Part shown: positions 59,086 through 62,374 of the stretch, one piece after another | How the letters are laid out: every line of letters begins with the position of its first letter | Position numbering within the stretch: position 1 is the stretch's first letter | Source of the DNA: Lachnospiraceae bacterium oral taxon 500 | Lineage (GTDB): Bacteria; Bacillota; Clostridia; Lachnospirales; Vallitaleaceae | Reading direction: 5' to 3' | Length of the DNA stretch: 64,000 nucleotides | Assembly (NCBI GenBank): GCA_002999035.1 | Contig: CP027241.1 | Location: forward strand, 1,243,001 to 1,307,000 | Position numbers and translations under genes: made by a program | Notes under the pieces: generated by a model | What the model saw: only the letters and a program-made list of their open reading frames with translations | Databases searched by the model: none | What the model was told of the DNA's origin: nothing

Positions 59086-59376
59086 ATGAGTGCAGATACA
59101 TTAAAAGGGAAGGTGATATTTACAATTGATAATAAGCATGGTGTTTTGGCATGTGGCAGATCAGATAAAGGAGATTCACAATTGCCGGGTTATCCAAATT
59201 ATTATGTTGGCCATTGGCTGGCAATTGATGGATACCGTGATTATGGGAATATAATTTATATTGTTGATCCAGCGAAATCAGATGTAATATCGTGGTCTAA
59301 AAACATAAGTGCGTATTACTCGGTATCAGCAAAGAAATTAGCGAAATTTTGCGAAACCAGAGGAATTGTATATTGA
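59086..59376 (+). CDS. Short protein resembling the C-terminal half of a C39-like peptidase (probable remnant)
   Basis: This 96-residue, AT-rich frame has the look of the second half of a papain-like/C39-like domain: VGHWLAIDGYRDYGNIIYIVDPAKSD carries the His-containing strand and the DPA turn usual there, but the N-terminal part with a catalytic Cys is absent (a lone Cys is in VLACGRSD). It has a good promoter and CAGGAACAAATCC before the ATG, so it may be expressed. It could be a truncated remnant or a stand-alone inhibitor-like fragment; I cannot decide. Confidence 0.5.
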   Translation: MSADTLKGKVIFTIDNKHGVLACGRSDKGDSQLPGYPNYYVGHWLAIDGYRDYGNIIYIVDPAKSDVISWSKNISAYYSVSAKKLAKFCETRGIVY

Positions 59377-59623: not shown

Positions 59624-60844
59624 ATGAAGCATAAACTATACTATCTGGCATGTATTTTGCTTTTCTTACTGGCAGCCTGTACCGCTAAAGAATATAAACC
59701 GGAAAAAGAACCGGGAAAGGAGAAACCAGTCAAAGAAGAACAAACTAAAGAAGAACAGGCCAAAGAGGAGCAAGCCAAAGAAGGCAAGACCGAGGAAGAA
59801 AAAAATGGGATGACAAGAGAAAATGTCGATTTGGACTATCATCTGCAAAAGCCGGTTATTTCTGCCCAAGAGGTTTTGACCTATCAGAAAATAGAGCTGC
59901 CCTCAAAAATAAATAATAAAAAAATGGCAGTTTTGGGGTTCTATGATGATGATCATTTTTTGCTGTCGCTGGAGAATATCACCGCTTTGGAAGAAACCGA
60001 ATATGGCCTGCTGGATGTGAAGAGTCAAAGTTATCAGCCGCTGCTGTCGCCGCCGGGTAAGGGTAAGATGCTCGCTGGAATTGTGGCGCACAGCGAGGAT
60101 TATATCGTCTATGTGGAGTACCATGGAAAAAGTGAATTTGACAGAACCAGTGAGGAAGAGGAGCTGCTGATGATTTTTTTAAAGGCCTATGACAAAAAGC
60201 AAAAGCAAATTGTGCCGATTCATGCTTACAGCGAGTTTTATCCGTATAGCGAGCTGCATTTTAAAAATAAAACTATCCTGATGGGGGATAAACTGTATTT
60301 TGATGATTTTAATGAAGCCGGTATGGACGCGGATTTATATTGCTATGATTTGACGAAGAAAAAAGTGGAAACCATGAAAAGCGGCTATCAAAATCCAGGG
60401 CTTTATCAGGGCGAGCCGGTTGCGATTGGCAGGAGCGGCGCGGAGTATGATACGATTTACCGGTTATCCGGCGAGAAAGTAGTGTCCCTGCCGGAAAATA
60501 TCATTGAATTAAGCGTGGGCGAGCGGGGGATTTTTGCACTAAACAACAAAAACACCGATGAGGTTTTGCGGGTTACGACTTTCAGCATAAATGATTTGCT
60601 TTCTGGTGAGGAATTGCTGGAAACGATGGGCTCAATCAGTCAGCCGGATAGCAATCAGTATTATCTGTGTTGGCAAAATTATACCGACCAGCCGCCGATG
60701 TTGTACAACTTGGAAAAGGGTTGTTTTTTAGCCTTTGACGATTTGCCGAAAGGAATTTTTGGGTTTGAACTGCGAGGCAGCGGCGGCCTGCTGATTTGCT
60801 ATGCAGAAGAAGGGACGACGTATTATCGCTTTGACCGGAAATGA
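59624..60844 (+). CDS. Lipoprotein of unknown function with Lys/Glu repeats
   Basis: This 406-residue protein has a lipoprotein signal with lipobox LLAAC (Cys at about 19), followed by a charged linker of 5-residue repeats (KEEQT, KEEQA, KEEQA, KEGKT; about residues 37-56). The remainder is rich in beta strands with WQN/YDL/DDHFLL motifs, suggestive of a beta-propeller-like fold, but no family is recognised. ATG follows CTAAGGAGCGGAGT. It is followed after 37 bases by the next exported gene (frameshifted); together with the RCC1 lipoprotein it forms an accessory surface-protein cluster. Confidence 0.75.
   Translation: MKHKLYYLACILLFLLAACTAKEYKPEKEPGKEKPVKEEQTKEEQAKEEQAKEGKTEEEKNGMTRENVDLDYHLQKPVISAQEVLTYQKIELPSKINNKKMAVLGFYDDDHFLLSLENITALEETEYGLLDVKSQSYQPLLSPPGKGKMLAGIVAHSEDYIVYVEYHGKSEFDRTSEEEELLMIFLKAYDKKQKQIVPIHAYSEFYPYSELHFKNKTILMGDKLYFDDFNEAGMDADLYCYDLTKKKVETMKSGYQNPGLYQGEPVAIGRSGAEYDTIYRLSGEKVVSLPENIIELSVGERGIFALNNKNTDEVLRVTTFSINDLLSGEELLETMGSISQPDSNQYYLCWQNYTDQPPMLYNLEKGCFLAFDDLPKGIFGFELRGSGGLLICYAEEGTTYYRFDRK
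59732..59791 (+). repeat. Four tandem 15-bp units in the lipoprotein gene
   Basis: Units AAAGAAGAACAAACT, AAAGAAGAACAGGCC, AAAGAGGAGCAAGCC and AAAGAAGGCAAGACC encode KEEQT/A-type pentads just after the lipid anchor. Confidence 0.8.
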
Positions 60845-60881
60845 GGGTTGCTTGTATTCGTTAGAGTAAACAGGAGCAGTT

Positions 60882-62029
60882 ATGAAAAGTTTTATAAAAA
60901 ACCATCGAACGTTGACCATAGGCTTAGGGATTGTTGCTTTACTCCTGGCCGTTTATTGGGGGGCATTTCATTATGTCCCCCCATGCGGCCGGGCGAAAAA
61001 AAGATAGGCATCGTTACTTCGGATCTTGATTCGTATAAAAGCAGCCTGATAATTTACAATCAAGACCTGAAAAGGCAAAGACAAAAATCCTTGAAGTCAT
61101 TTGGGCATGCCGGCTTAGGTTTTAACTGTTACCGGCAGCCAATCAGTGACGGGCATTTTTTCTTAGAAGCCAATGGCATTTTTGGATTGTATTCGATTGA
61201 GGACTTTATCTCGATTGATATGGAAAAGGAAACGGCAGCGGCATACCCGGTTTCTACGAAAATGGGTCTTTTAGGAGTGGCGGCCAATCAAGACTACGCC
61301 TATAGCCTTACCAATGTAAACGCCGAGTCGGTTATAGCGCAGCATAGCCGCCGGGATAAGCAAGAAACGTACATAGCGAGATTTAAAGTTTATATCGAAT
61401 TATTAGCGGCTTCGGAACGTTATGTTTTCGCGGGGGCGACGGACTCGTTTCAGGATGAAAAATATTGCCACATTCATGTGCTTGACGCGAAATCGCTGCA
61501 GCTCCTTCGGATTATCGACCTGACTGAGTATGGCTTGATTTATGGCAATAACTATCTGCTGACGGCAGACAGTCTTTATATTCCGCTGGTTGCTAAGCGG
61601 CGAGAAGATGAGGAAATGCCGTTTGATAATAATAAAGTGGTTAAAATATCCTTGGCAGATTTTTCTTACTCGGTGATTGAACTGGCCTGCCGAATGCCGG
61701 GGCAAATGGAAAAACGAAAAGACTCGTTGTTTGTGCTGCACGAATACGAAGAGGAAGGCTCCGGCCCGAATCATCTGACAGTGTATAATGAAACGACCGG
61801 CAAGCAGACGATTTATATACTGGGTGATGTTTATTGGCTGGACTTTGCCATTTCCGGCGATGAGCTGTATCTGCTGGGGATTGATGAAGCGGCGGGCGGA
61901 TATTTCTGCTTTCACCGCTACGCCATAACCGACGACGCGAAGCTGACCTTGGAAAAGAAGCAGATTGTGCCAATCTATGGCTATGTCGCCGGCATGTATG
62001 TTTATGAAAAGGAAGAAGCGGCGGAGTAG
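60882..62029 (+). CDS. Exported hypothetical protein, frame broken at a homopolymer (slippage or pseudogene)
   Basis: The ATG at 60882 follows CAGGAGCAGTT and opens MKSFIKNHRTLTIGLGIVAL, a signal/anchor helix, but this frame stops at TAG about 61011 after GRAKKR. The -1 frame continues without stop to 62029 (PGEKKIGIVTSDLDSYKSS onward), about 340 residues rich in beta strands and aromatic residues like the preceding lipoprotein. One added base in the A7 run (61005-61011) or in the C6 run (60976-60982) would join both parts into one 383-codon gene. This could be a read error, a true mutation, or phase variation/transcriptional slippage. An alternative start at 60848 in the second frame gives an unlikely N-terminus. 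Confidence 0.6.
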
Positions 62030-62092: not shown

Positions 62093-62128
62093 TTATTGAT
62101 TTTGATTAGAATGGGGGGGGATTATCAG

Positions 62129-62374
62129 ATGGAAAAAATTATAAATACCCAAAAATCATTAAAAAGAATCAAGCTTACAACCTTTTCCTTGCTGGTCATA
62201 TCCTCTTTCTTTCTGATGTTTGATCACACCAGAGCGATTGGGGCTATTGTTATGGCTGTGTCATTAGTTGCCGAATGGAGATGGTATCGCTGCCCGAACT
62301 GCCATAAATCTTTAGACCCAAGAATTAACGTTGATAAAAATAGGTATTGTCCGCACTGCGGTAAGGAAATATAA
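62129..62374 (+). CDS. Small membrane protein with C-terminal zinc ribbon
   Basis: This 81-residue protein has two membrane helices (about 16-50: LTTFSLLVISSFFLMF and AIGAIVMAVSLVAEW) and a zinc ribbon CPNCHKSL...CPHCGKEI (four Cys) at the end. No family name is known to me. The start at 62129 is 8 bases after a run of eight G that serves as ribosome binding site; the frame is open upstream to 62075 but runs into the repeat end. It lies among lipoprotein genes. Confidence 0.65.
   Translation: MEKIINTQKSLKRIKLTTFSLLVISSFFLMFDHTRAIGAIVMAVSLVAEWRWYRCPNCHKSLDPRINVDKNRYCPHCGKEI

Follow-up and report, generated by a model that had tools for sequence, protein, structure and literature searches.

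In the window, the whole stretch of 64,000 nucleotides analysed here (positions 1243001–1307000 of a 3.2 Mb single-contig genome with a completeness of 99.98%), a gene for an anchored exported protein is, judged by its sequence, broken at the 5′ end, with a body that is undecayed. We tentatively hypothesize that this gene was hit by a real and recent one-base length change in a cluster of hairpin and homopolymer sequence. Three readings fit the data, namely mutation, transcriptional slippage and sequencing error; mutation is ranked first, with a confidence that stays short of even. No special circumstance is required for a mutation in such a cluster. The cluster would be prone to mutation, being composed of a strong stem-loop with runs of six G and six C in its arms that abuts a run of seven A. 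Translation from a good ribosome site would yield the anchor and end at a stop after 41 codons, leaving the gene essentially off in the sequenced genome. The features of the locus are as follows.

59624–60844, + strand: lipoprotein-like gene upstream, ending 37 nt before the ATG at 60882
60872–60876, + strand: AGGAG, Shine-Dalgarno-like sequence 5 nt 5′ of the ATG at 60882
60882–61007, + strand: first frame, from the ATG at 60882 to a TAG at 61005–61007, a 41-residue hydrophobic stretch read as an N-terminal membrane anchor
60942–60995, + strand: predicted stem-loop of the sense RNA (−35.1 kcal/mol, z about −5), outer arms approximately 60942–60952 and 60985–60995, inner arms 60958–60966 and 60973–60981
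60958–60963, + strand: run of six G (G6), left inner arm of the stem
60977–60982, + strand: run of six C (C6), right inner arm of the stem
60992–62029, + strand: second frame, a 345-residue predicted beta-rich (propeller-like) domain, stop-free and with an undecayed family score
60996–61002, + strand: run of seven A (A7) immediately 3′ of the stem, candidate slippage site

The two frames are offset by one base, and the second stays open without interruption between 60848 and 62029, 345 of its residues lying 3′ of the junction. A first-pass annotation of this DNA had put the anchor and its ribosome site in one frame and the remainder in the other, which holds, as do the coordinates, the C6 and the A7. 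It had further located the break between C6 and A7. Both run positions are right, but the two frames are open throughout the G6–C6–A7 cluster, so a single sequence does not fix the break within it, and the possible interval reaches approximately from G6 to A7. That annotation lacked the G6 run and the large stem-loop, which pairs G6 with C6 and touches A7. Judged by the spacing, the upstream lipoprotein-like gene and the frame-broken gene are probably co-transcribed. That the second frame has a start of its own, at the ATG at 60983, was considered and rejected: this ATG has no Shine-Dalgarno sequence within reach, and an anchor is present in all ten homologues translated (see below).

Two neighbouring features may be recorded here. 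A 96-residue frame (window 59086–59376) has a match, under the curated cut-off, to a C39-like peptidase domain; the match is confined to the C-terminal part, and the frame is possibly a gene remnant. On the other side of the broken gene, a run of eight G (window 62113–62120) lies eight bases 5′ of the ATG at 62129, the start of a small membrane protein with a zinc ribbon, and takes the place of a normal ribosome site.

A family profile was built from the body and two relatives and searched in 392 genomes of the order. Ten of these match, the own genome counted, with 13 matches, none of which holds an internal stop. Of the twelve matches outside the own genome, ten were translated at full length (L003, L004, L012, L013, L014, L015, L016, L019, L020, L021), and each of the ten carries a signal or lipoprotein anchor in the same open reading frame as the body; excluded from the anchor counts are L017 (an open frame of 234 residues that is partial), L018 (E 8.4e-4) and, as a match from another search, L005 (E 7.5e-4). 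Since anchor and domain share a single frame in ten related genes from this order, the interruption is a true frame break, and the intactness of the family argues for a real slip. An explanation by paralogues was rejected: the own genome gives a single profile match, and the upstream gene is not detectable as a paralogue. No relatives were found among viral contigs.

Against a leave-one-out profile the body scores 148 bits, within the range of 98–372 bits of the other ten, treated likewise. Intact homologues elsewhere are what a pseudogene would have, but the remainder of this gene, with 345 stop-free codons at that score, lacks the decay of one. Decay of the remainder, together with a break fixed in all strains, is what the first-pass annotation had named as refuting its own proposal; the decay was not seen. 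An undecayed body implies a change of recent date or one that is bypassed at times, and it agrees with a real slip; it would also be expected of a sequencing error in a gene that is in fact intact.

The body has no family match in Pfam, NCBIfam or PHROG. Its structure model is beta-rich with a mean pLDDT of 50.9, and Foldseek returns mainly propellers (including YncE, BamB, tricorn, acylaminoacyl and dipeptidyl peptidases) with TM-scores below 0.5; the family profile adds one weak match, to CJ1041C (E 0.0013). The modelled product is likely a membrane-anchored beta-propeller-like protein, the propeller reading being weak because of the low mean pLDDT. In two genomes (L004 538–1191, and L013, reverse strand, approximately 714–1487) a gene for an exported hydrolase, presumably NlpC/P60- or YiiX-like, lies directly upstream of a related propeller lipoprotein gene, and one genome (G060) holds three such propeller lipoprotein genes inside about 8 kb.

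The stem-loop, the most unusual feature of the broken gene, stands out in this genome. RNA folding, with dinucleotide shuffles as the reference, gives it z-scores of −4.95 to −5.53, and 0 of 200 shuffles fold as well; the final base of the predicted stem (60995) adjoins the first A of A7 (60996). Among the 589 runs of at least seven A on both strands of 877 kb, this run has the strongest abutting hairpin, defined as one ending within three bases of the run (−34.5, next −27.3; mean −5.1, sd 5.8); this rank of 1 in 589 is not a strict p-value, as the stem-loop was noticed only after inspection of the junction and about three kinds of local feature were examined. The same top rank is found in a smaller set of 344 such runs in 477 kb. 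Folds as strong occur in these 477 kb in only 3 of 38518 coding and in 17 of 18112 non-coding windows of 60 nt (the latter with the target's own included), and no second pair of G or C runs of at least six occurs within 60 bases. Random synonymous recoding gives a comparable fold in 2 of 2000 codings (z −4.0; 150 control stretches have an sd of 1.0 and a minimum of −3.4), hence the encoded protein does not explain the hairpin. Nothing comparable is found in the seven 5′ ends of homologues that were folded, where the best 60-nt energies range from −8.0 to −20.7.

Two other origins of the structure were rejected. As to the insertion of a hairpin element present in several copies, the 81-base junction is unique in the genome apart from chance matches of 14–19 bases. 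As to an intrinsic terminator, the stem is followed by an A-run and not a T-run, and among 596 runs of at least seven T no abutting hairpin attains −34.5. A repeat of intergenic appearance, with the core GCCCGCCCGG(G/A)CAGA and an inverted repeat, was observed in four copies in 477 kb (L044 4266, L049 8505, L059 12280, L060 10654), and tracts of eight to ten G adjoin copies of a similar sequence (L030, L032, L038).

A plain mutation does not need the strongest hairpin of 589 A-runs at the break, though the hairpin may have caused it. The main rival reading is transcriptional slippage stimulated by the stem-loop, by which a hairpin in the nascent RNA, forming as the polymerase crosses A7, would realign the hybrid, and some transcripts with a changed number of A's would join the frames; the cell would make mostly truncated anchor and sometimes full-length protein. 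We consider this possible, though on the unlikely side. The predicted stem lies directly 5′ of the A-run at the junction, and the rank of the hairpin as well as the rarity of comparable coding windows and synonymous codings agree with such a role. The geometry has been published for IS1447 of the IS3 family in Clostridium thermocellum (PMC6211511) and for an insertion sequence of Roseiflexus (PMC5009743). According to the available part of the former report, IS1447 has a stem-loop followed by A9, and among 52 cDNA clones 8 have one A more and 9 have one fewer (PMC6211511). Both IS1447 and the present gene are from Firmicutes, with a stem-loop by an A-run at a two-frame junction and a one-base change in the A-run that joins the frames; IS1447 differs in its A9, in being a mobile element and in having many relatives with the same arrangement (PMC6211511), whereas the present case is an A7 in a non-mobile exported-protein gene of one genome. 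Slippage at insertion sequences of this genome was considered as a host control and dropped, a search having given a single rve match above the cut-off. The tssM1 gene of Citrobacter rodentium, rescued by transcription over a poly-A tract, resembles our case in being non-mobile and interrupted, with an A-run that precedes the stop, but it has A11, the paper's text, as far as available, mentions no hairpin, and its rescue was demonstrated by protein and RNA data (PMC4256274).

The length of the run speaks against slippage. In the accessible part of one study, RNA polymerase of E. coli shows no slippage below a length of eight A's (PMC6260861), which makes A7 short; the published thresholds, as far as these sources go, disagree and vary by polymerase. 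The sufficiency of A7 in IS1447 was apparently tested with mutants expressed from pET plasmids in BL21(DE3), judging by the part of the report at hand, hence by T7 polymerase, an enzyme that readily slips. For Roseiflexus, the portion of the review available describes a hairpin that drives the loss of a base only (PMC5009743). The arrangement is also unconserved, all ten translated homologues being single-frame and the seven folded 5′ ends without a comparable hairpin. The proposal of the first-pass annotation that some full product arises by slippage at A7 is strengthened by the abutting stem-loop and weakened by the short run and the lack of conservation. Conceivably, the hairpin permits the synthesis of some intact protein. 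The fuller claim, that in a non-mobile exported-protein gene a stem-loop and seven A's slip the polymerase to give a short anchor and a full surface protein in a set share of transcripts, we hold to be rather unlikely. If true, slippage control of the type seen in insertion sequences would operate at a cell-surface gene, with a length threshold of A7 in the presence of a hairpin; if the hairpin causes slippage, the locus would provide a natural test for a stem-loop lowering the homopolymer length needed, in Firmicutes and outside mobile elements. A search of titles and abstract openings on slippage at stem-loops or homopolymers, on clostridial homopolymer phase variation and on the organism gave no paper on this gene.

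Homopolymer tracts elsewhere in the genome bear on mutation and sequencing error alike. In 857 kb, which is the screened sequence without a stretch (L043) that had been selected for its C8 tract, 312 tracts of at least seven A/T or six G/C are intact within coding runs, a count that by construction includes only tracts in uninterrupted coding runs. The A7, C6 and G6 of the junction are ordinary tracts. For frame breaks, the first 477 kb were screened with suspicious pairs judged by eye, and a stricter automatic filter was run over all 877 kb; in the second 400 kb, inspection by eye, without use of homology, assigned the five candidates to neighbouring genes or to low-complexity sequence. Within the screened 857 kb no further tract of such length was found at a frame break, and short 5′ breaks like that of the present gene would slip past both screens. 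Two other broken genes were found, a type I phosphodiesterase (L047 14403–15902, flagged by the automatic filter) and a PD-(D/E)XK transposase-type gene (L052 11667–12163, not flagged by it). The overlap in the former has no run of five or more; that in the latter has A5 and T6, with domain matches that put the break earlier and sequence missing as well.

A sequencing or assembly error at the cluster, with the real gene intact, would be favoured by its context: G6, C6 and A7 stand inside 45 bases, and a strong hairpin with G6 and C6 in its arms next to A7 is a spot where sequencing may fail locally, which also weighs against a real slip. The authors of GeneTack, in the part of their paper available, expect BLASTp-validated frame transitions in unclustered genes to be sequencing errors and not genuine indels (PMC3711429). 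Yet the genome is a near-complete single contig, and with 312 intact tracts and no other tract break systematic homopolymer error is unlikely; tract errors in this assembly are rare. The two ordinary breaks lie away from homopolymers and show that broken genes exist in this genome too. All in all we regard an error as unlikely, and infer that the change is real, of a kind uncommon here; the tract that changed and the frequency of its reversion are likewise inferred. There is precedent for a real slip in inlA of Listeria monocytogenes, a surface-protein gene in which one-base changes of a 5′ poly-A tract of six to seven truncate the product and silence the gene; in the portion of the report available no hairpin is mentioned, and for inlA a series of strains exists (PMC2831843). 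If there is no slippage, frame breaks at clusters of hairpin and homopolymer sequence in finished genomes would need reads before they are read as phase switches.

Programmed −1 ribosomal frameshifting on A7 shortly before the stop codon is very improbable. The junction offers A7, one codon and then the stop, with a frame offset of the right sense. The slippery heptamer motif is A_AAA_AAG, but the phase of A7 does not yield it. Neither is there structure downstream (z −0.07 for 61003–61062, −0.73 for 61003–61102), nor a Shine-Dalgarno-like stimulator just upstream; an in-phase heptamer combined with a stimulator is thus absent from this junction.

Reversible phase variation, in which tract length would change often enough for on and off cells to coexist, had been proposed as a switch in the first-pass annotation and proves weak; we consider it improbable. 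The exported product, the 5′ position of the tracts and the presence in the same genome of an LPXTG adhesin broken at C8 and of eleven tracts of at least eight G/C would fit. Contingency genes, however, rely on a hypermutable long tract, commonly of at least eight G/C or longer, and the junction has only A7, C6 and G6. Tracts of this size are intact 312 times in coding runs in 857 kb, and in inlA, by the available part of the report, A6 changes to A7 at a frequency of about 5.5e-7 and A7 to A6 at 3.9e-8, both below 1e-6 and slow for a switch (PMC2831843). A sortase-dependent pilus of Bifidobacterium breve likewise has an exported product with signal part and body in two open reading frames joined by tract length; as far as the source is available, it differs by its LPXTG pilins and by G11/G12, longer than the tracts of six to seven here (PMC9187656). 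In this genome it is the C8 adhesin, not the present gene, that it resembles.

That adhesin (L043 6535–10211; G000:C1:2356535–2360211) is a large LPXTG surface protein that carries collagen-binding, SpaA and Big_9 domains and whose signal part and body frames overlap at C8. It is a strong candidate for phase variation, and a much better one than the gene described here. The search for tracts of at least eight G/C gave 21 overlapping matches, which are the eleven distinct tracts. Among other long tracts, a run of nine G lies in an intact 314-codon frame without Pfam match (L028 1501–1509; G000:C1:906542). A run of ten G (L022 approximately 1499–1508, G strand; G000:C1:51183–51192) falls within the N-terminal membrane segment encoded by an intact frame of 503 codons, and this frame is preceded by a gene that we take to be BlaI-like.
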